From Thermanaeromonas toyohensis ToBE (GTDB lineage: Bacteria; Bacillota; DSM-521; Neomoorellales; Neomoorellaceae): a stretch of DNA of 64,000 bases. The stretch spans positions 248,001 through 312,000 of the forward strand of contig NZ_LT838272.1 of the NCBI RefSeq assembly GCF_900176005.1, in the 5' to 3' direction. Under the pieces are notes generated by a model. That model had not been told where the DNA came from. It saw only the letters and a program-made list of their open reading frames with translations, and made no database searches. Below, one piece after another: positions 3,554-36,241 of the stretch; within the stretch, counting starts at the first letter, position 1, and every line of letters starts with the position of its first letter. The position numbers and the translations under genes are program-made.

Positions 3554-4822
3554 ATGTCGGTGCCTGTAATTTCTTTGTTAGCCCTGATTTTTGTAATTGT
3601 TATTAGCTGTATTTTTCCTCTGAATATCGGCGCCATGTCCCTGGGATTATCCCTTCTTGTGGGGCATTATCTAGGTGGTGTTAAAATAGCCGAGATAATC
3701 AAAGGGTACCCCACGAATATATTCTTGATGCTAGCTGGTACTACGTATTTATTCGCCTTAGCCCAGGTGAATGGTACTTTAGAAAAAATTGTTAAGTACG
3801 CTATAAAGGGTGTACGGGGTAATGTAGCTATCCTTCCCATTATCTTTTTCTTCCTCGCCTTTGCCCTTTCCTCCATGGGCCCAGGCCAAATAACCATTGC
3901 TGCCTTGATGGCACCCATGGCCATGCTTTTGGCGGAGGAAGTAGGTATCAGCCCCTTGCTTATGGCCATTGTAGTGGGAAACGGTGGGCAGGCTGGCGCT
4001 ATGTCGCCTATCGCTCCGGCGGGGGTTATAACGGCAGGGTTAACTAGCAAGATGGGCCTTTCTGGAGTAAGCGGTGTCTTGTGGCTAAACCAGCTCCTGG
4101 GGCACTTTATTGTATCTGTGTTAGCTTACATCATTTATGGAGGGCTAAAACTATGGAAGGCTAAAGATACCGGCGAGCGGCAGGTCCTGGCTAACTTAGA
4201 GATCGAGCCCTTTACCCGCAACCAGTGGATAACCTTCATAGCCATTTTAGTGTTCGTTATAGGCGCCCTCTTCTTTAAGATGGATGTAGGACTGGGCGGC
4301 TTCCTTATCGGTACTATCCTCGCTCTATTTAAGATAGCTGATGAAGGTAAAGCCATTAAGCAAATGCCCTGGGGTACCATCTTATTTGTATGCGGCGTTA
4401 CGGTGCTTATCGAGCTGATGAAGAATATCGGTGGTATGGATCTTTTTGCCGGAATTATAGCTAGTGTTTCCACACCCTTCACCCTTACCTTAGTCACGGG
4501 TTTCCTGGCTGCGCTGATCTCTGCTTACGCTAGCACTATAGGTGTTATTTTACCAGCTTTCATCCCTATGGCTCCCATGTTGCTACAGAAGGTCGGGGCC
4601 CCTTCTACAGAGCTCATACCCTTGCTCTCTACTATTGTGGTTTGCGGCTTCCTTACCGATCTTAGCCCCCTTTCTACCACTGGCGCTATCTTTTACGCCA
4701 ATGCGGGCGAGAAGACCAACAAGCAAAAGCTCTTCCGGGATATGCTTATCTGGGGCTTATCCATGTCAGTAGTGGGAGCGGTGATAAGCTGGCTAGCCTT
4801 TACAGTCTTGCGGTTGCCGTAA
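3554..4822 (+). CDS. MatC-like dicarboxylate/anion carrier (12-TM membrane protein)
   Basis: 422 aa, strongly hydrophobic, roughly 11-12 transmembrane segments. The N-terminal half has the look of the dicarboxylate carrier MatC N-domain (SLC13/ion transporter superfamily): LNIGAMSLGLSLLVG, LMLAGTTYLFALAQVNG, then a GNGGQAGAMSPIAPAGV loop and a matching SAYASTIGVILPAFIPM loop in the second half, the paired re-entrant loops of such carriers. ATG start behind AAGGAGGGAC. It ends in a strong terminator. With an aconitase-type hydratase and a 2-oxoacid oxidoreductase upstream, uptake of a di- or tricarboxylate feeding that pathway is a reasonable inference; the actual substrate is not shown by sequence. 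Confidence 0.8.
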   Translation: MSVPVISLLALIFVIVISCIFPLNIGAMSLGLSLLVGHYLGGVKIAEIIKGYPTNIFLMLAGTTYLFALAQVNGTLEKIVKYAIKGVRGNVAILPIIFFFLAFALSSMGPGQITIAALMAPMAMLLAEEVGISPLLMAIVVGNGGQAGAMSPIAPAGVITAGLTSKMGLSGVSGVLWLNQLLGHFIVSVLAYIIYGGLKLWKAKDTGERQVLANLEIEPFTRNQWITFIAILVFVIGALFFKMDVGLGGFLIGTILALFKIADEGKAIKQMPWGTILFVCGVTVLIELMKNIGGMDLFAGIIASVSTPFTLTLVTGFLAALISAYASTIGVILPAFIPMAPMLLQKVGAPSTELIPLLSTIVVCGFLTDLSPLSTTGAIFYANAGEKTNKQKLFRDMLIWGLSMSVVGAVISWLAFTVLRLP

Positions 4823-22643: not shown

Positions 22644-23804
22644 TTATGCACTGCGGTAGAGTTTGGTAAGGACGAACTCTTTATGGCCCAAGGCTTCAGC
22701 TTTGGTGAAACGGCCGTTCAGGGTGCGGAAGAATTCTTCTAGGATTTTACTTCCTGCTTCTTCAAGGTTCATTTCTCGGCGTAAGATGCCGCTTAAGTCT
22801 ACATCTATATGCTCGCTCATGGTGGAAACAGTGATCGGGTTGGCCGAGATCTTTATAACAGGAATAATGGGATGGCCTACGATGTTACCTTGGCCGGTGG
22901 TAAAGAAATGGAGAACCGAGCCGCCAGCAGCAAAGAGGGTAATAGCTTCCGCTGCAGCAGAAGAGGTCTCCATATACCATAACCCCTTACCCTGGGGAGC
23001 TTCTGCAGGTTGAAGTACACCTTGGATGAGGGAGCGCTTACCTATTTTTTGGATGTTGCCCAGAGCTTTTTCTTCAATGGTGGTCAGGCCCCCGGCTATG
23101 TTGCCTTCGGTAGGTTGGGAACCTATGAGGTCTACACCCTGGGATATAATAAATTCGTTATAAGAGGTAAAACTCCGCATGAATTGTTCCCTGATTTCCG
23201 GGGTGGCGCAGCGCTCGGCTACCAGGTGTTCACCTCCTGTAAGTTCAGAGGTTTCCCCAAAGAGGACCGTGGCGCCCATATCCACCAGCCGGTCCACAGC
23301 GTTCCCCAAGGCCGGGTTTGAAGCCAGCCCGGAGGTGGTATCGGATTCCCCACACTTGATGCTCACTACTAGCTCTGAAACATCGCATTCTTCTTTCTTA
23401 AGTTCGGTAGCGTATTGTACATATTCCACAGCCTTACGAGCAGCCATTTCTATAACCTTAAGATCTCCATAACGCTCAATGGCAAAACCGGTTACGGGTT
23501 TTTGAGTTGCTGCGATCCCTTCTACTACGCGGTTGGTCCACTTAGGTTCTATCCCTATAACTATACAGGCGGCTACATTAGGATTGGATCCGGTCCCTAT
23601 CAAAGTGCGGAAGAAGAGCTCCAGGTCTTCTCCAAATTGCAACCGGCCATAAGGATGGGGGAGGGCTATGGTTCCTTCTACTATTTTAGCTACTCCTTCG
23701 GCAGCAGCATTAGAAAGATCATCCAAAGGGAGAATTACTACATGGTTCCGGATACCTACTCGGCCGTTCTCCCTACGGTAGCCTAAAAATTTAGTTTCTG
23801 GCAT
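22644..23804 (-). CDS. UxaA-family dehydratase/lyase, large catalytic subunit
   Basis: About 386 aa. ATG 23804 follows GCGAGGTGG; a longer reading to 23840 overlaps the small subunit. Family features: [26 protein letters not shown] at the start (shown in part), then the His/Cys metal-type residues in [31 protein letters not shown], and [19 protein letters not shown] near the end. The group covers altronate dehydratase, galactarate dehydratase and (2R)-sulfolactate sulfo-lyase; the separate small subunit gene (SuyA/SuyB arrangement) leaves altronate and sulfolactate both possible. Iron-dependent removal of water or sulfite from a hydroxyacid. Controlled by the palindromic operator upstream. 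Confidence 0.85.
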
Positions 23805-23808
23805 ATCT

Positions 23809-24087
23809 TTACCACCTCGCGGTTTTAAGGTTATGCACATGCACGTGTTCGCCCCGGGCTATTGTATCTGTTGCCCGGCCAATAGGTTGACCATATTTGA
23901 TCACCATTTCACCTTTAGCTATGTCCTGGAGGGCGATCTTGTGGCCGAGCGGAATGTTACTTTTAGCTTGGAGTTCAATGATGCTATCATCCTCCATGAC
24001 CCAGCCAGTTACCCTTTCGCCAGCTTGGATATCCGCTACGGCTACGCCTACGGTATCCGCCTTGGCGTGTACAAAAAACTTTTCCAC
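23809..24087 (-). CDS. UxaA-family dehydratase small subunit (SAF domain)
   Basis: 92 aa, a single SAF domain: [20 protein letters not shown], then [22 protein letters not shown], standard for the N-terminal part of altronate dehydratase or the alpha subunit of sulfolactate sulfo-lyase. Stops 4 bp before the large subunit's ATG, so the two are translated together. Transcribed from a promoter with TTGACA and TACAAT boxes overlapped by a dyad operator. Confidence 0.88.
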
Positions 24088-24252: not shown

Positions 24253-24957
24253 ATGGGCATGCCAAGTAGAGTAATTAGGCTTAGCTTGTGGGTCGGGTTG
24301 GGGGTAGTAGCTTTAGGTATGTTTATCACTATGCGTATGGCTTGGCAGGGGTACCGGGAACGCAAAGCGGTTCAGGCCCTTTCCTGGGCTCTGGCCAACC
24401 AGGTGGTGGTAGTGGATCCTGGGCATGGTGGGATCGATGCCGGTGCCCGGGGGCCGGGAGGCACGTTGGAGGCAGATATAGTATTAGCTATAAGCCAAAA
24501 CTTGGCGGGGTTTTTAAGGCAAGGTGGGGCCCGGGTTTTCCTTACCCGCCAGGATGCCCAGGCCCCGGAGGGGGAAAGCGGGGATGATCTGGTAGAGAGG
24601 GTGCGGCTGGCCCAGAAGGTGGGAGCGGACGTTTTTATATCAGTTCATGCCAATGCTTTTAATGACCGGGAGTACGGGGCTCAGGTGTTTTTTAACCCCG
24701 GCTCTAAGGAAGGAGAAAGGCTGGCGGTGGCTATCCAGGAGGAGATCCGCCGGTTATTAAAAAATACCGAGCGAGAAGCTTTAGGTTTAGATGCTTTTGT
24801 GCTCCGCAACCTCAATATTCCGGCGGTAATTGTGGAGGTGGGTTTCCTTACTAATCCACAGGAAGAGAAACTTTTAAGGAACCCAGATTACCAGCGTAGA
24901 ATGGCCTTCGCCATTTATTTAGGGATCGCGAAGTATTTAGCCGAGAGAAAACGGTAA
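24253..24957 (+). CDS. cwlD: N-acetylmuramoyl-L-alanine amidase, CwlD-like
   Basis: 234 aa. Residues 8-30 form one membrane anchor; the Amidase_3 domain spans about 50-232. Zinc ligands are visible: H58 in VVDPGHGGIDAG, E73 in GTLEADIVL, His in ISVHANAF (about 132), and catalytic Glu in IVEVGFLTN (about 197). CwlD acts in the forespore to make muramic-delta-lactam of spore cortex peptidoglycan, so it marks a spore former. Length and anchor fit CwlD better than vegetative amidases, which carry extra wall-binding domains. ATG start behind GGCGGGGGGAAA. Confidence 0.9.
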   Translation: MGMPSRVIRLSLWVGLGVVALGMFITMRMAWQGYRERKAVQALSWALANQVVVVDPGHGGIDAGARGPGGTLEADIVLAISQNLAGFLRQGGARVFLTRQDAQAPEGESGDDLVERVRLAQKVGADVFISVHANAFNDREYGAQVFFNPGSKEGERLAVAIQEEIRRLLKNTEREALGLDAFVLRNLNIPAVIVEVGFLTNPQEEKLLRNPDYQRRMAFAIYLGIAKYLAERKR

Positions 24958-25050
24958 CTACTAAATTCATGCTCTATGTGGTAAAGTATACCTAAAGAAA
25001 GGATTACATTAAAACTTAAGCGGTAGGTCATATTAAAAGGGGTGGTAGAT

Positions 25051-26439
25051 GTGGGCAGATTGCTGGAAGTGGTTTTCTTACCTCACCCGCCTATTATGGT
25101 ACCGGAGGTGGGGGGAGAGGAACTGGCTAAAATTGCTTCCACTGTAGCTTCTACTAGGGAGCTAGCCCGCGAGGTAGCCCGGCTAGGCCCAGAGGTGATC
25201 ATCATTATATCCCCCCATGGCCCGGTTTTCCGGGAAGCTGTAGGTTTGTGGGCTACGCGCAAGTTACAAGGGGACTTATCTTCCTTCCGTGCTCCTAGAG
25301 TTAAGTTTCAGTACGCGTTGGACCTAGAATTAACCCGGGATATTGCAGCCGCGGCCAGCCAAGGAGGAGTCCCGGTTGTTTTGTTAGATGAAGAGAGCAG
25401 CAAGCGTTATGGCCTTATTCCAGAGTTGGATCACGGGATGATGGTGCCCCTTTACTTTCTACGGGAGGCGGGGGTGGAGGTACCCTTGGTAGCCATGGGC
25501 ATGGCCTTTATGGAACGGGAGAAACTATATGCTTTCGGGGCAGTCCTCGCCCGGGCAGTTAAGGCCAGCTCCCGCCGGGCCGTGCTCGTAGCCAGCGGCG
25601 ATCTATCCCACCGCCTGATCCCGGGCGCACCGGCCGGCTACGATCCCCAGGGAGAAATTTTTGATCGCCGGGTAAAGGAATTGCTTTCGAGCTTAGATGT
25701 GGCTGGGCTTTTGGCCTTACCAGAAGATCTAGCTGAACGAGCTGGGGAATGCGGACTCCGCTCCTTTATTATGGGCTTAGGAGCTTTGGACGGATACCGG
25801 GTAGAGGGTGAGGTTCTTTCTTATGAAGGACCCTTTGGCGTGGGGTACTTAGTGGCTAGGTTCTTGCCTAGAGAGGAAGACCCCCAGCGTAGTTTGCTCA
25901 AAAAAGAAGAGCTAAAACCCGGGGTTTCCGAACTGCCTTTTCCGGTGCGCCTGGCTAAGGAAAGCCTAGAGCATTACTTGCATACCGGACGTATTTTACC
26001 TGTTCCTAAGGATCTGCCACCAGATATGGCACGCCGCGCTGGGGTGTTTGTATCTATAAAAAAATTTGGCCAGCTCCGGGGATGTATAGGAACCGTCAGC
26101 CCTACTCGTTCTAATATTGCCGAAGAGATTATTTACAATGCTTTGAGCGCTGGGCTGGAAGATCCCCGTTTTCCGCCAGTCAAGGTTGAAGAACTACCCT
26201 ATCTTGAATATTCGGTCGACGTGCTGGAGGAACCGGAGCCTGTAAATAGTCTAGAAGAGCTTAATCCGCGGGTGTATGGAGTGATCGTCTCTAGCGGCCT
26301 TAAGAAAGGTTTGCTTTTGCCTGATCTAGAGGGGATAGATACAGCGGAAGAGCAGGTGGCTATTGCCAAACGTAAAGCAGGTATAGGGCCTGACGAACCT
26401 TGCCGTCTCGAACGCTTCCGGGTTACTCGGTATCGCTAG
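25051..26439 (+). CDS. MEMO-like/AMMECR1 fusion protein of the AmmeMemoRadiSam system
   Basis: About 462 aa in two domains: residues 1-270 resemble class III extradiol dioxygenase/MEMO (VVFLPHPPIMVPEVG, IIISPHGPVF, LDHGMMVPLYFL, VLVASGDLSHRL supply the His/Asp metal site), and 300-462 are AMMECR1 (VFVSIKKFGQLRGCIGTVSP, GLEDPRFPPV, EEQVAIAKRKAGI). GTG 25051 is preferred behind AAAAGGGGTGG; GTG 25042 is an alternative. The two proteins are often separate; here they are one chain, followed by the radical SAM member. All three are widely conserved together and the reaction of the system is not established to my knowledge. Confidence 0.92.
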   Translation: MGRLLEVVFLPHPPIMVPEVGGEELAKIASTVASTRELAREVARLGPEVIIIISPHGPVFREAVGLWATRKLQGDLSSFRAPRVKFQYALDLELTRDIAAAASQGGVPVVLLDEESSKRYGLIPELDHGMMVPLYFLREAGVEVPLVAMGMAFMEREKLYAFGAVLARAVKASSRRAVLVASGDLSHRLIPGAPAGYDPQGEIFDRRVKELLSSLDVAGLLALPEDLAERAGECGLRSFIMGLGALDGYRVEGEVLSYEGPFGVGYLVARFLPREEDPQRSLLKKEELKPGVSELPFPVRLAKESLEHYLHTGRILPVPKDLPPDMARRAGVFVSIKKFGQLRGCIGTVSPTRSNIAEEIIYNALSAGLEDPRFPPVKVEELPYLEYSVDVLEEPEPVNSLEELNPRVYGVIVSSGLKKGLLLPDLEGIDTAEEQVAIAKRKAGIGPDEPCRLERFRVTRYR

Positions 26440-26604
26440 AGAACCTTGGCCTAAAGGACGTTGGTATTTTCGACTTCCGGAGCCTGGTGAGCTATGCCAG
26501 ATGGTAAGTAATACCAGAGATCAGAGATGCATGAAATAAACGAGGGAGAGCGTTTTTGGGCAGACAATGAAAGGGGGAAGTTAATTAAGCAAGGAGGAAA
26601 CGGG

Positions 26605-27597
26605 ATGCGGGAAGCCAAGTATTATGTTAAGTTAGAGGAGGATAAGGTAGAGTGCCGCCTTTGCCCCCATACTTGCCGGCTAGGTCCTGGGCGTCGGGGG
26701 ATCTGCCGTGTACGGGAAAACCGGGAAGGAAGGCTTTTTACCCGCAACTATGGTCTTTGTTCCTCCCTAGCCTTGGACCCTATCGAAAAAAAGCCCTTAT
26801 ATCACTTTTACCCCGGGCACTTTATTCTTTCAGCAGGGACAGTAGGGTGCAACTTTGGCTGCGAGTTTTGCCAGAACTGGGAGATAGCCCACGGTGAACC
26901 GGAAGTAGTAGAGATTACCCCCGGGTATCTAGTGGAGGAAGCTAAACGCTTAAAGAGTGTGGGTCTGGCCTATACTTACTCTGAACCCATCGTATGGTTT
27001 GAATTTGTATTGGATACCGCCCGGATGGCGCGGGAGGCGGGGCTAAAGAATGTCTTAGTTACCAACGGTTTTATCCGACCAGAGCCTTTGAAAGAGCTTT
27101 TACCTGTTATCGATGCTTTAAACATCGATGTGAAGGGGTTCAGTAGAGAGTTTTATCGCCATATAGTCCACGGGGATTACCAGCCGGTGCTACGTACAGC
27201 AGTACAGGCTAAGGAAGCCGGATGCCACGTGGAGATTACTACTTTACTGGTCACCGGTTTAAATGATAAATTGGATGAGCTGGAAGAACTGGTAAAATGG
27301 ATACTGGCGGAGCTGGGGAAGGATACACCCCTTCATTTTTCCCGTTATTTTCCCCGCTATAAATTAAAACAGCCCCCTACTCCCCTAGAGACTATGCAGC
27401 GCGCCTGGGAGATGGCCTGCCGTTACCTTAATTATGTTTATTTAGGCAATGTGGAAGCCCCTCAAGCCAATAATACTTACTGTCCCCAGTGCGGGAATCT
27501 AGTGATAAGGCGGCAGGGTTATAGGGTTTCTTTTCCGGGCCTTGTAACTCCCGGCTACTGCCGCCAGTGCGGTAGTCAAATCGCCATTATAATGTAA
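26605..27597 (+). CDS. amrS: AmmeMemoRadiSam system radical SAM enzyme (AmrS type)
   Basis: About 330 aa. ATG 26605 is chosen (GCAAGGAGGAAACGGG upstream); the longer reading adds 26 hydrophilic residues. Radical SAM cluster motif CNFGCEFCQN at 82-91; an N-terminal Cys group CRLCPHTC..GICRVR (C17, C20, C24, C34) and a C-terminal zinc-ribbon-like pair CPQCGN/CRQCGS. The start resembles pyruvate formate-lyase activases, but the C-terminus and the neighbour place it with AmrS. Cytoplasmic, anaerobic chemistry; substrate presumably the adjacent MEMO/AMMECR1 protein or its ligand (inference). Confidence 0.92.
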   Translation: MREAKYYVKLEEDKVECRLCPHTCRLGPGRRGICRVRENREGRLFTRNYGLCSSLALDPIEKKPLYHFYPGHFILSAGTVGCNFGCEFCQNWEIAHGEPEVVEITPGYLVEEAKRLKSVGLAYTYSEPIVWFEFVLDTARMAREAGLKNVLVTNGFIRPEPLKELLPVIDALNIDVKGFSREFYRHIVHGDYQPVLRTAVQAKEAGCHVEITTLLVTGLNDKLDELEELVKWILAELGKDTPLHFSRYFPRYKLKQPPTPLETMQRAWEMACRYLNYVYLGNVEAPQANNTYCPQCGNLVIRRQGYRVSFPGLVTPGYCRQCGSQIAIIM

Positions 27598-31634: not shown

Positions 31635-31650
31635 TTGCATTTTTATGCAA
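31635..31650 (+). promoter_or_regulatory. ARG-box-like operator (ArgR/AhrC)
   Basis: TTGCATTTTTATGCAA, a perfect 6-bp dyad around TTTT, close to the ARG box pattern TGAATnnnnATTCA with TGCAT arms. It covers the -35 of the arg promoter, a repressing position. The dyad and its place are seen; binding by ArgR is inferred. Confidence 0.7.
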
Positions 31651-31664
31651 ACTAGGCGTATAAT
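31635..31664 (+). promoter_or_regulatory. Promoter of the arginine operon
   Basis: -35 TTGCAT (31635-31640), 18-bp spacer, perfect -10 TATAAT (31659-31664), about 35 bp ahead of argC. The -10 sits in a second palindrome GTATAATTATAC. Confidence 0.75.
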
Positions 31665-31698
31665 TATACAGCAACCTTCCACCTCGAGGTGTTTTAAT

Positions 31699-32739
31699 AT
31701 GGTTAAAGTAGGTATTATAGGAGCTACAGGTTATACAGGGGCGGAACTGGTGCGGCTAGCTTCTCGTCACCCCCGGGTGGAACTGGTGGCCCTCACCTCC
31801 CAAACCTTCTCTGGGCAAGAAATGGCCCGGGTCTACCCTTCCCTTTATGGGTTTTGTTCCCATACTTGCAAGAATTTTTCCCCGGAGGAGGTGCTTTCCC
31901 AGGCAGAGGTAGTTTTTCTGGCCCTGCCCCATGGCCACGCCGTACCCATAGCCGAAGAGGCCCTCCGCCGGGGGGTCCGGGTTATCGACTTGGGGGCTGA
32001 CTTACGCTTTCGGGACGTACGGGTTTATGAAGAGTGGTACGGGATTAAGCATCCTAACCCTGAATTGGCTGCCCGGGCGGTTTACGGGCTACCCGAGATA
32101 CACCGGGAGGAGATCGCTTCTGCCCAGGTGGTGGCCAATCCAGGATGCTATCCTACTAGTGTGATTTTAGCCCTGGCACCCCTTATCAAGGGAGGTTATG
32201 GGGAATTAGAGAGCATCGTTATCGATGCCAAGTCCGGTGTCTCAGGTGCTGGGAGGAAAACAGAGATAGCTTACCTTTTTACCGAATGTAACGAAAACCT
32301 GCACCCTTACGGTGTAGCCCGGCATCGCCACACCCCGGAGATCGAGCAAGAGTTGAGCTTAATTGCTGGGCAAGAAGTGAGGGTTTCCTTTACCCCGCAT
32401 TTGGTCCCTATTACCCGGGGAATCCTCAGTACTATTTATGTAAACCTTAAGGTACAAGTTTCGGAGGAAGAGCTCCGCCAGGTGTACGAGGAGTTCTACC
32501 GGGAAGCCCCCTTTGTAAAACTTCTGCCCCCAGGTCTTTGGCCGCATACCCGTTGGGTTTATGGTAGCAACTTCTGCCATATTAATTTTACTTTAGACCG
32601 GCGCACAGGGCGGCTGATTTTGGCCTCTGCCATCGATAATTTGACTAAAGGAGCCTCTGGCCAGGCCCTCCAAAATCTTAATCTTATGTTCGGGTGGCCT
32701 GAAGCCTTGGGCCTTGATTATCCTGGCCTTTCCCCTTAA
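31699..32739 (+). CDS. argC: N-acetyl-gamma-glutamyl-phosphate reductase
   Basis: 346 aa; NADPH-dependent reduction of acetylglutamyl phosphate to the semialdehyde, third step of arginine synthesis. ATG 31699 (CGAGGTG upstream, [20 protein letters not shown]) is chosen over ATG 31645. GATGYTG is the nucleotide-binding loop, VANPGCYPT holds the catalytic Cys, and [10 protein letters not shown] the catalytic His. First gene of argCJBDFGH, directly behind an ARG-box promoter. Confidence 0.97.
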
Positions 32740-32780
32740 AGCTTTTGGTAAAAATTTTCCTTAGGAGGGGATTTACCTTA

Positions 32781-34001
32781 ATGGAATGGGAGATTATACC
32801 CGGCGGGGTAACTGCTCCCCGGGGTTTCCGGGCGGCAGGTGTTTACGCTGGGTTAAAAAAGGCTAACCGCGGTAAAAAGGATTTAGCCTTAATTGTAAGC
32901 GATACCTTAGCAGCAGCGGCTGCGGTGTATACTACCAATAAAGTACAGGCTGCTCCTTTAAAGGTTACCCGCGAGCATTTGGCTTCCGGCTGGGCACGGG
33001 CCATTGTGGTGAACAGCGGGAATGCCAATGCTTGTACTGGAGAACAGGGCTTGAAGGATGCCCGGAGAATGGCGGAGATAACTGCGGAAGCCCTGGGCTG
33101 TCGCCCGCAAGAAGTAGTGGTAGCTTCTACAGGTGTTATAGGTGTACCCCTTCCCATGGATAAAATCGAAGCCGGCATCCGCCAAGCAGCCCAAGAATTA
33201 TCCAAAGAGGGGAGCCGGGCGGCAGCGGAGGCTATCCTTACCACTGACCTGCGAGTAAAAGAGATCGCCTTGCGCTTTAGTATCAGAGGTCGGCCGGTGG
33301 TGATAGGGGGCATAGCCAAGGGCTCCGGCATGATCCATCCCAACCTAGCTACTATGCTCGCTTTTTTTACTACCGATGCGAGTCTTGACCCAGAACAGTT
33401 GCAGAAGGCTTTAAGTTTAGCTGTGGACAATACCTTTAACCTTATTACGGTAGATGGCGATACCAGCACCAATGATATGGTAGTAGCCTTGGCCAACGGC
33501 CAGTCCGGGGTTGGACCTACCAGCGAAGAAGAATATAAGTTATTTACTTCAGTCTTGGAGTATGCCTGTCGGTACCTGGCCCGGCTTATCGCCCGGGATG
33601 GAGAGGGAGCCACCCGACTTATTGAGGTAGAAGTACGAGGTGCCCACACCTTTATGGATGCCCGTAAGATAGCCCGAGCTATAGCCAGCTCTAATCTAGT
33701 AAAAAGCGCCGTCTTCGGTGCTGATGCCAACTGGGGACGTATTTTATGCGCTGCAGGCTACGCAGGTGCTGAGCTAGACCCAGAACGGGTGGATATTTTT
33801 ATTGAAAGCGCTGCCGGTCGCGAGCAGCTAGCAGCAAGGGGACAAATGGTTCCCTTTGATGAAGCCAAAGCCAGCGCCATACTTGCGGCTGAAGAGATAA
33901 GGATTATTGTAGACCTTAATCTGGGGATGGCTACAGCCGTAGCTTATGGCTGTGACCTGACTTACGATTATGTTAAAATTAACGCTTCTTACCGAACCTA
34001 G
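32781..34001 (+). CDS. argJ: Glutamate N-acetyltransferase / amino-acid acetyltransferase (bifunctional)
   Basis: 406 aa. Recycles the acetyl group from acetylornithine to glutamate and, when bifunctional, also makes acetylglutamate from acetyl-CoA. The self-cleavage site is [13 protein letters not shown], with nucleophile Thr at about residue 191 that becomes the N-terminus of the beta chain. ATG 32781 follows AGGAGGGG. Other landmarks [12 protein letters not shown] and [17 protein letters not shown]. No separate argA/argE-type gene in this operon, consistent with the cyclic pathway. Confidence 0.97.
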
Positions 34002-34083
34002 AGGAGGAAGGACTTATAGAAGCAGGAAGACGGGGGTAAAGAGTTCAAAGGGAATAGAGGTGAGGGAGAGGAGGGGATCCGAT

Positions 34084-34944
34084 TTGGAGCTTTCTGCTTT
34101 AGAAAAAACAAGTATCCTCATTGAAGCTTTACCTTATATCCGCGAGTTTTACGGGAAGACGGTAGTCATAAAATATGGTGGCCATGCCATGCAGAGCTGC
34201 GAACTTAAAAGGGCTGTGATGCAGGATGTGGTCCTCATGCACCTGGTGGGCATGCGGCCGGTGTTAGTGCACGGCGGGGGGCCGGAGATAACCCAGATGA
34301 TGGAAAGGTTGGGGAAAAAGCCGGAGTTTATACAAGGACAACGGGTGACTGATGCGGAAACTATGGAAATTGTAGAGATGGTCTTGGTAGGTAAGATCAA
34401 TAAAGAAATCGTGGCGGAGATAAACCGTCTGGGAGGCAGGGCTGTGGGTTTATGTGGTAAGGACGGGATGCTTATTGAAGCTGAAAAGCAGAGCGGGGAT
34501 GTGGAGCTGGGGTTTGTAGGCCAGGTACGTAGGATAAATCCGGGTATTATAGAAACCCTTATAGCAGAGGGCTATATACCTGTAGTGGCTCCTATAGGGG
34601 TAGGACCAGAGGGTGAAAGCTATAACATAAATGCTGATTATGTGGCTGGGGAACTAGCCGCTGCTCTAAAGGCCCATAAACTAGTGCTCCTTACAGACGT
34701 AGAGGGAATATTAGCCGATAAAAAGGATCCCTCTTCCCTCCTTTCGGCGGTAGAGGTAACTAGAGTACCTGAGCTCATTGAGGCAGGGATAATCTCAGGG
34801 GGTATGATCCCCAAAGTACAGTGCTGCATTCGGGCCTTGGAAGGTGGTGTGGCCCGTACCCATATCATTGATGGCCGGGTACCCCACTCTATTTTGCTGG
34901 AGATTTTCACCGACAAAGGTATCGGCACTATGGTGGTTCCTTAA
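34084..34944 (+). CDS. argB: Acetylglutamate kinase
   Basis: About 286 aa. TTG 34084 is chosen: GAGAGGAGGGG upstream and the natural N-terminus [19 protein letters not shown]; the longer reading to 33970 overlaps argJ and adds a basic non-family leader. Amino-acid kinase motifs: [30 protein letters not shown] and the C-terminal [13 protein letters not shown]. In this family an arginine-sensing site often sits near the N-terminus (helix ahead of IKYGG); feedback inhibition is likely but not readable here. Confidence 0.96.
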
Positions 34945-34950
34945 AAGGGG

Positions 34951-34970
34951 CTAGGTGCTCCAACACCTAG
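34951..34970 (+). other. Intercistronic hairpin between argB and argD
   Basis: CTAGGTG / CACCTAG, perfect 7-bp stem, loop CTCCAA, without a T run. It may modulate mRNA processing or the relative expression of argB and argD; not a terminator. Confidence 0.5.
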
Positions 34971-35044
34971 AACGAAATGGGCGGCCAACACGTCTTGGTG
35001 GTTACTAGGGTCTAAATTATATAGGCCTAGAACGGAGGGGTTAT

Positions 35045-36241
35045 ATGACTAACGCTGAAATCATTGATCTAGGTAGCCAATATGTGATGCATACCTATAA
35101 CCGTTATCCAATAGCCCTGGTACGCGGGCAAGGAACTAAAGTTTGGGATGCGGAGGGTCGTGAGTATTTAGATTTTGTTGCCGGGCTGGCAGTTAATTCC
35201 TTAGGCCATTGCCATCCCCGGGTGGTAGAGGCCATCCGGGAGCAGGCAGGAAGAATTCTGCACTGCTCCAACCTCTATTGGATAGCCCCCCAGGTGGAGC
35301 TGGCCAGAATCTTGGTGGAGCATTCTGGGCTAGGCAAGGCTTTTTTTTGTAATAGCGGGGCCGAGGCCGTGGAGGCAGCTATAAAGCTGGCTAGGAAATA
35401 TGCCAAGGTGCATAAAGGCGAAAACTGTTTCGAGATAATTACCATGCACCGTTCTTTTCACGGCCGTACTTTAGGGGCACTAGCGGCCACCGCCCAGGAG
35501 AAATTCCACCGGGGTTTTGAGCCTTTGCCACCCGGCTTCCGGTATGTTCCCTTTAACAATTTGGAAGCTTTAAAGGAGGCTATCACCCCGGAGACTTGCG
35601 CTGTAATGCTGGAGCCGGTTCAAGGTGAAGGGGGGGTTTATCCGGCAGATAAGGAATACCTGCGGGCGGTAAGGGAATTATGCGACGAAAAGGGTATATT
35701 ACTTATCTTCGATGAGATCCAGTGTGGATTAGGCCGTACCGGCTACCTTTTCGCTTACCAGTATTATGGGGTGTACCCAGACATATTAACCTTAGCCAAG
35801 GCCCTGGCCGGGGGTGTTCCCATCGGTGCCATGCTGGCTAAGGAGGAGGTAGCCCAAGCCTTTAGCCCAGGAGACCACGCTTCTACCTTCGGAGGCAACC
35901 CCTTGGCCGCTGCTTGTGGGGTAGCAGCCTTCCGTACTCTACTTGAGGAGGGGTTAGTGGAGAACGCTAGGAAACAGGGGGCGTATTTAATAGAGCGCTT
36001 GCGCGCCCTGGCTACTGAATTTCCTAAAGTGTTGGATGTGCGCGGGCGAGGCCTTCTGGTGGGCCTGGAAATTGACGGCCCAGCTGATGAAATAGCTCTA
36101 GCTTGTCTTAAGGAGGGCCTTCTTATTAATGCTGTCCACGGCCGGATCTTGCGTTTTCTGCCCCCGCTTTCCGTAAAACAAGAAGAGATCGATAAAGCCC
36201 TGGAGATCCTCCGGAAAGCCCTAAAGGAATGCTTAGGGTAA
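35045..36241 (+). CDS. argD: Acetylornithine aminotransferase
   Basis: 398 aa class III PLP transaminase converting acetylglutamate semialdehyde to acetylornithine (may also serve lysine synthesis). Signatures: FCNSGAEAVEAAIKLARKYA, EPVQGEGGVYPADKEYL, LIFDEIQCGLGRTG (Asp that binds the pyridine N) and LAKALAGGVPIGAM with the PLP Lys; HASTFGGNPLAAA closes the phosphate site. ATG with GGAGGGG upstream. 100 bp after argB. Confidence 0.97.
   Translation: MTNAEIIDLGSQYVMHTYNRYPIALVRGQGTKVWDAEGREYLDFVAGLAVNSLGHCHPRVVEAIREQAGRILHCSNLYWIAPQVELARILVEHSGLGKAFFCNSGAEAVEAAIKLARKYAKVHKGENCFEIITMHRSFHGRTLGALAATAQEKFHRGFEPLPPGFRYVPFNNLEALKEAITPETCAVMLEPVQGEGGVYPADKEYLRAVRELCDEKGILLIFDEIQCGLGRTGYLFAYQYYGVYPDILTLAKALAGGVPIGAMLAKEEVAQAFSPGDHASTFGGNPLAAACGVAAFRTLLEEGLVENARKQGAYLIERLRALATEFPKVLDVRGRGLLVGLEIDGPADEIALACLKEGLLINAVHGRILRFLPPLSVKQEEIDKALEILRKALKECLG

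Follow-up and report, generated by a model that had tools for sequence, protein, structure and literature searches.

The gene pair studied here, in a window of 64,000 nucleotides (the whole stretch of Thermanaeromonas toyohensis ToBE DNA analysed), is real but ordinary: judged from its sequence, it represents the AmmeMemoRadiSam system, already known, in a LigB-type form with two genes. Across the genomes compared, the LigB-type domain, AMMECR1 and the radical SAM enzyme probably form one enzyme unit, with LigB in the place that Memo holds in archaea and Thermotoga. We regard them as one functional unit because AMMECR1, the radical SAM enzyme and the metal-site residues are jointly absent from an Actinomycetota lineage that has only the LigB domain. 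In other Actinomycetota LigB-AMMECR1 sits between the genes of MiaB and MiaA, and for this reason we tentatively propose a role at tRNA adenosine 37.

The LigB-AMMECR1 fusion is encoded by one uninterrupted frame on the forward strand, 465 aa from GTG 25042, with GTG 25051, where the sequence-only reading had begun the gene, as an in-frame alternative start (Table 1). The protein scores above the Pfam gathering score for LigB, PF02900 (156.4 vs 26.3 bits), and above the NCBIfam cut-off of TIGR04335, AmmeMemoSam_A (131.8 vs 99 bits), but stays below that of TIGR04336, the Memo-type protein B (22.1 vs 26 bits). The Pfam Memo model PF01875 gave zero matches, both in the fusion protein and in the whole 3.33 Mb genome, and the only LigB match in that genome lies at the fusion gene. 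The sequence-only reading had placed MEMO-like and AMMECR1 domains on a single chain. The fusion with AMMECR1 is real, but the N-terminal half is LigB-type: a MEMO identity is ruled out by Pfam, NCBIfam and the structure ranking described below. Memo and LigB share a fold, and the label MEMO-like holds at superfamily level only.

Table 1. Positions of the features discussed, in window coordinates (residues of the radical SAM protein are numbered in the 356-residue frame).
Feature	Position	Strand	Evidence
CwlD-like amidase; co-directional upstream neighbour, lineage context, no membership of the system claimed	24253..24957	+	PF01520, E 3.8e-47
LigB-AMMECR1 fusion gene	25042..26439	+	ORF, Pfam, NCBIfam; 80/80 relatives at fetched loci fused
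LigB / class III extradiol dioxygenase-like domain (residues 11-271)	25072..25854	+	PF02900, E 1e-45; nearest structure TK2203
Codons of E236-C237: putative third metal-ligand position (dioxygenase Glu) and invariant Cys	25747..25752	+	144-row alignment
AMMECR1 domain (residues 302-464), LRGCIG motif, Cys348 invariant	25945..26433	+	PF01871, E 8e-46; 1vaj, Z 21.4
AmmeMemoRadiSam radical SAM enzyme	26605..27597 (longest frame from 26527, 356 residues)	+	TIGR04337
N-terminal Cys set C43/C46/C50/C60, possible second cluster or Zn site	26653..26706	+	63/63 aligned sequences
CxxxCxxC of the radical SAM cluster, C108/C112/C115	26848..26871	+	63/63 aligned sequences

That a radical SAM enzyme follows the fusion, as had been read from the sequence, is confirmed: the downstream gene exceeds the NCBIfam cut-off of TIGR04337, AmmeMemoSam_rS (342.2 vs 220 bits), and matches PF04055 (radical SAM) with E 1.4e-24. 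Its start is likely ATG 26605 and not 26527, because AAGGAGG precedes the former, almost no relative aligns with the 26 extra residues of the longer frame, and the model has a pLDDT below 50 over residues 1-24. In addition to the Cys sets of Table 1, 49 of the 63 aligned sequences have C319 and C322. The structure model of this protein has a pLDDT of 91.1; its nearest solved fold is pyruvate formate-lyase activase (3cb8, E 1.1e-15, TM 0.79 by target), and the NCBIfam runners-up are PFLA-type models. Gene set and adjacency are thus those of AmmeMemoRadiSam (TIGR04335/TIGR04336/TIGR04337), with the cut-offs of the A and rS models passed; the modelled protein B of that system, however, is of the Memo type, and a fused LigB-type domain is found here instead.

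An AlphaFold2 model of the fusion, built from 31 sequences, has a mean pLDDT of 93.5. The only low-confidence stretch is the hinge at residues 291-296, and with a pTM of 0.66 the placement of the two domains relative to each other is uncertain. The N-terminal half is closest to TK2203 (5hee; Z 33.9, rmsd 2.3, 258 aligned residues), a protein of Thermococcus kodakarensis. TK2203 is 22-23% identical to it; unlike the fusion, it consists of a single domain in a chain of 262 residues and has no AMMECR1. In a pairwise alignment its sequence also lacks the ECG motif that the fusion has. Next come the aminophenol dioxygenases (Z about 29), DesB and LigB (26-27) and, further down, iron-bound MEMO1 (7kq8, Z 19.7), and Foldseek ranked them in the same order. 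The nearest structures of known reaction are aminophenol and catechol-type dioxygenases, at Z 25-29. With these class III extradiol dioxygenases (LigAB, DesB, aminophenol 1,6-dioxygenase) the N-terminal half shares the fold and the His/His/Glu positions at 15-20% identity; it differs from them in an extra invariant Cys beside the Glu and in its fixed AMMECR1 and radical SAM partners. The C-terminal half matches the AMMECR1 proteins PH0010 (1vaj, Z 21.4), MM0484 (1zq7, 19.2) and ST0229 (1wsc, 15.8), which have the same domain and LRGCIG region but, unlike the fusion, are free-standing archaeal proteins.

The residues of the presumed active site are strongly conserved. Among 81 aligned fusions, H15 and H59 are present in 80, E236 in 79, and D187, H190, C237 and G238 in all 81; on the AMMECR1 side, Cys348 is found in 81/81 and LRGCIG is invariant. 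H131 is conserved along with H190 and with both His and the Glu of the ligand positions. A larger alignment of 144 AMMECR1-partnered rows, six of which are repeats of genomes fetched two or three times, has C237 in 144, E236 in 142, and H15 and H59 in 143 each (one gap in each column), and by these alignments AMMECR1 always goes together with an intact putative metal site. H15, H59 and E236 are likely metal ligands, given the dioxygenase alignment and the ligands named for relatives in PMC11081632. The excerpt available of that paper gives H49, H81 and C244 as the iron ligands of MEMO1, with Cys in place of Glu. MEMO1/Memo (PF01875) has the superfamily fold in common with the fusion, but the fusion keeps the Glu ligand position, and its Glu236 adjoins the invariant Cys237. 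The Cys-Gly in this third-ligand region recalls C244 of MEMO1, with which Cys237 would match.

A scan of named genomes yielded 80 loci, in Bacillota, Actinomycetota (mainly Coriobacteriia), Acidobacteria and Armatimonadetes records. The architecture is fused in 80/80, so that chance is excluded as the origin of the fusion. In 62 of these loci the fetched flank contains a radical SAM frame of more than 220 residues, and in three (L012, L050, L051) only a short piece of one. The 15 genomes without a visible radical SAM neighbour were searched in full, together with two controls. The enzyme was found above the cut-off elsewhere in 13 of the 15; the L068 genome has it as two sub-cut-off pieces, and the whole-genome search of L065, a 1.2 Mb metagenome assembly, found none.

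Co-occurrence was then counted in 299 genomes of the phylum Bacillota, with overlaps read by eye from the lists and cross-checked against the tallies. AMMECR1 is present in 228 and the radical SAM enzyme in 230 (E <= 1e-30; 219 above the cut-off), with 224 having both. LigB, present in 241, accompanies AMMECR1 in 227 of the 228. The sole genome with AMMECR1 and no LigB match, G164, has an internal deletion that breaks the LigB half, while AMMECR1 and the radical SAM gene read through. Six genomes (G100, G256, G280, G304, G327, G329) have the radical SAM enzyme without AMMECR1, and four (G089, G239, G260, G305) have AMMECR1 without the radical SAM enzyme at E <= 1e-30. We therefore reject the radical SAM enzyme as an obligatory partner, since these 4/299 genomes keep AMMECR1 and LigB alone. 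Cooperation of the three activities, which had been suggested on the strength of the fusion, is supported by this co-occurrence, by the joint absence in the side lineage and by the existence of fused and adjacent split forms, though a strict dependence of the three on one another does not hold in the four genomes just named.

The split form is exemplified by L106, where LigB (275 aa), AMMECR1 (172 aa) and radical SAM genes follow one another, and by 13 of the 30 best Actinomycetota loci (of 107 matched genomes), in which LigB and AMMECR1 are separate adjacent genes. On a tree of the LigB domain the state changes between fused and split at least three times (shuffled mean 13.5). The two-gene fused form is usual among Bacillota and also frequent in Actinomycetota and Acidobacteria, and the reduction to two genes by fusion, which the sequence-only reading had singled out, is not special to this locus. 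A viral search returned one AMMECR1-only match.

We also asked how Memo is distributed relative to the fusion. The Memo model was run against 50 of the 80 fusion genomes and gave six matches, all on frames of 465-578 aa. By their length these are read as the fusion itself, and a separate Memo was found in 0/50. In the 299 phylum genomes there was a Memo match in 46, and in about 20 of these genomes the match lies on a frame of its own and scores better. A strict mutual exclusion of Memo and fusion was rejected, as most of the approximately 20 genomes with separate Memo also have AMMECR1. Twelve of these Memo genes were fetched (L092-L103); most have a hydrophobic leader at the start, and their neighbours are different. 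They look secreted and appear to be another Memo clade. The Bacillota Memo set has LDSP at the position where the Cys is expected. The protein B slot in Bacillota belongs to LigB. All control genomes with a radical SAM enzyme above the cut-off (Thermotoga maritima and three archaea) carry Memo, and in the control archaea Memo, AMMECR1 and the radical SAM enzyme are all present.

The surroundings of the unit differ between lineages. Relatives of the window's locus have cwlD, a LysE-type exporter gene and argC-argJ as neighbours. A cwlD homologue is present in 23 loci including the window; the exporter gene lies upstream and co-oriented in 22, in 20 of them without an intervening gene; and argC is found downstream in 14 of 77 database loci and in the window, six times directly behind the radical SAM gene. 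All eight Acidobacteria loci have a divergent geranylgeranyl-reductase-like gene and gyrB nearby. Among the neighbours that recur at the 80 loci of the scan, no aromatic-degradation genes were recognised. RsmF and an M20 peptidase were considered as parts of the system and rejected, with homologues in 2 and 8 of 78 gene sets, respectively, and a UxaA-like neighbour was likewise rejected.

In the first scan 5/5 Coriobacteriia fusions had miaB on one side and miaA on the other, with all three genes on one strand (miaB and miaA being named by similarity and characteristic starts, not by family search), while neither miaA nor miaB was seen in the fetched flanks of 75 non-Coriobacteriia loci. A sample of the class Coriobacteriia had AMMECR1 in 86 of 119 genomes; among the best 30 of the 86, miaB precedes and miaA follows in 25, and the radical SAM gene lies beside the fusion in the other five. 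A profile of the LigB half matched 107 of 246 Actinomycetota genomes, and in 29 of the best 30 LigB-AMMECR1 adjoins miaB and/or miaA (both in 20, miaB only in five, miaA only in four, with some flanks ending early). Taken together, 54 of 60 sampled Actinomycetota loci are mia-adjacent (the best-scoring 30 and 30, with three genomes counted twice). The radical SAM enzyme is encoded elsewhere in these genomes, above the cut-off in 48 of 51; G455 has none, and in G513 and G672 it is below the cut-off. On the LigB tree the mia and radical SAM contexts form separate blocks with eight changes of context (shuffled mean 60), and the five Coriobacteriia loci with an adjacent radical SAM gene group with the Bacillota type. 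The mia linkage thus goes back to few events and may be an inherited gene order.

Fifteen LigB-only regions were picked by hand from the weaker rows of the Actinomycetota LigB-profile search. All 15 keep the mia slot: miaB and miaA flank 14, and one meets a contig end. H190 and E236 are lost in 15/15, H59 in 14, C237 in 13 and H15 in 12 (gaps counted as losses). No AMMECR1 was found in the fetched flanks of the 15 regions, and no radical SAM enzyme above the cut-off in the 10 genomes searched. Two loci with AMMECR1 bear on the same point: in L065, whose genome had no radical SAM match, Gln occupies the E236 position, whereas L117 (genome G455) keeps the site residues although it too is without the radical SAM enzyme. 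Rv2728c may be the mycobacterial LigB relic. A literature search on this gene turned up, in the excerpt available, mention in a gene list only.

What the unit acts on is a matter of several competing proposals. Our best explanation as a whole, substrate included, is a tentative one: the unit would modify the prenylated A37 of tRNA (i6A/ms2i6A) or the immediate precursor of this nucleoside. In this scheme AMMECR1 would bind the substrate. A 5'-deoxyadenosyl-radical step at an unactivated carbon would be initiated by the radical SAM enzyme, whose fold is nearest to pyruvate formate-lyase activase, and the reaction would then be finished at the metal site of the LigB-type domain. O2 would not necessarily be used, as many carriers belong to anaerobe groups. 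The fuller version of this proposal is more doubtful. It holds that the unit is a tRNA-A37 hypermodification system that alters the isopentenyl or methylthio group installed by MiaA and MiaB, an anaerobe counterpart of the O2-dependent hydroxylase MiaE, and that AMMECR1, the radical SAM enzyme and the active site disappeared in one Actinomycetota branch, so that what stands between miaB and miaA there is an inactive LigB relic. Two observations speak against a tRNA substrate. The mia context is confined to Actinomycetota, where it arose in few events, and other neighbours are found elsewhere; and archaea carry the Memo form, yet MiaA is not known from them. MiaE, the enzyme known to hydroxylate ms2i6A, requires O2, according to the excerpt of PMC7680852 available, which leaves room for a putative O2-independent route.

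The same few events on the tree are also what would be expected if the mia order were simply inherited and the unit served the synthesis or breakdown of a small molecule, perhaps derived from an amino acid, that has nothing to do with tRNA; the LysE-type exporter upstream and argC downstream in the window's relatives would fit such a role. We consider this possible, with some reserve: the exporter and argC neighbours are lineage-bound too, and the mia embedding, kept in 54 of the 60 sampled loci, outlasts the decay of the metal site. The likeness of the radical SAM enzyme to the PFL-activating enzyme 3cb8, with PFLA-type models next in NCBIfam, raises another idea, namely that it is an activase which gives the LigB-AMMECR1 protein a radical or modifies it permanently (e.g. 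near E236-C237-G238 or LRGCIG), the modified protein then acting on its own substrate. The invariance of C237, G238 and LRGCIG agrees with this, but the same fold is common to many radical SAM enzymes with small substrates, the additional Cys sets (C43-C60; C319/C322) do not point specifically to a protein substrate, and LigB and AMMECR1 occur without the radical SAM enzyme in four of the phylum genomes. Human MEMO1 and AMMECR1 likewise exist without it; we hold an activase role to be rather doubtful.

Two further proposals concern the LigB half itself. It could be a non-catalytic or metal-handling scaffold, like MEMO1, which, in the excerpt available of PMC11081632, binds iron and has no dioxygenase activity on the substrates tested. 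The LigB-only relatives of Actinomycetota, which hold their slot without the site, would agree with such a role. It is unlikely nonetheless, because carriers as diverse as these have kept D187, H190 and the site residues almost without exception, which is more than a scaffold would need. Alternatively, the conserved two His and Glu ligand positions together with H131 and H190, and the aminophenol and catechol-type enzymes as the closest structures of known reaction, would fit an ordinary O2-dependent ring-cleaving extradiol dioxygenase. That reading seems highly improbable to us, since its fixed partner is of an oxygen-sensitive enzyme type and is found in anaerobe groups, an invariant Cys237 stands next to the Glu, and aromatic-degradation genes were not recognised among the recurrent neighbours at the 80 loci. 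Our preferred reading, an enzyme unit acting at A37 of tRNA, keeps its tentative standing beside these proposals.

AMMECR1 and MEMO1 are conserved up to humans. The PCAD-Memo superfamily survey by Burroughs et al. (J Biol Chem, 2019) reportedly covers the associations of Memo, AMMECR1 and radical SAM proteins, and is said to suggest a role of Memo in modifying nucleotide bases and isoprenoids; CDD also catalogues the fusion architecture. The excerpt available of PMC7159879 mentions "recently-described Memo-Ammecr1 systems", citing Burroughs et al. 2019. Our literature search found no paper joining AMMECR1 with an extradiol dioxygenase or with MiaB, nor one joining miaA or miaB with an extradiol dioxygenase, and the earlier statement that the system has no settled reaction agrees with the literature as far as searched.

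The locus in the window is thus one more ordinary copy of the system. Actinomycetota, in contrast, offer a natural experiment, in which the unit is flanked by two genes whose tRNA pathway is fully defined, and in which a side lineage retains an inactive-looking LigB relic with its partners absent. In this way the wider comparison provides a tentative but testable substrate hypothesis.

Upstream of the LigB-AMMECR1 fusion gene and in the same direction lies a gene for a LysE-family exporter in 22 loci (e.g., L018, L025, L035, and L045), 20 of which have no gene between the two. Arginine genes lie on the other side: argC directly follows the radical-SAM gene in L026, L027, L036, L045, L047, and L049, and in the window argC, argJ, argB-like, and argD-like genes lie downstream of the pair. 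The window also carries two adjacent frames that, judged by sequence alone, resemble a single UxaA-type altronate dehydratase split in two.

Coordinates of features in the window and in related genomes.
Feature	Sequence	Positions	Strand
UxaA-like frames	window	22644-24087	minus
arg genes	window	31645-36241	
Two-piece radical-SAM match	G027:C134	7025-9373	
Broken LigB half	L104 (G164:C1:2236000-2244000)	~3595-4550	minus

In all eight Acidobacteria loci (L061, L066, L068, L074-L077, and L081) a gene for a geranylgeranyl-reductase-like FAD oxidoreductase is divergent from the fusion, and gyrB is nearby. The radical-SAM gene of these genomes is located elsewhere in each, in that of L068 as sub-cut-off pieces only. 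In Coriobacteriia with a mia-embedded LigB-AMMECR1 gene, the radical-SAM genes (L083, L086, and L088) adjoin a gene whose product, judged by its sequence, resembles an iron-only hydrogenase large-subunit protein. The two-piece radical-SAM match of genome G027 lies within a single open frame of 816 residues, and the long stretch that separates the pieces may be an intein or another kind of insertion.

The Memo proteins of Bacillota (L092-L103) mostly have a hydrophobic leader; near the end they carry LDSP at the place of the metal Cys region of MEMO1; the gene for a large conserved protein adjoins many of their genes.

In L104 an internal deletion and a frame change break the LigB half, while AMMECR1 and the radical-SAM gene are intact and the G164 assembly is one contig. 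L104 is a natural LigB loss.
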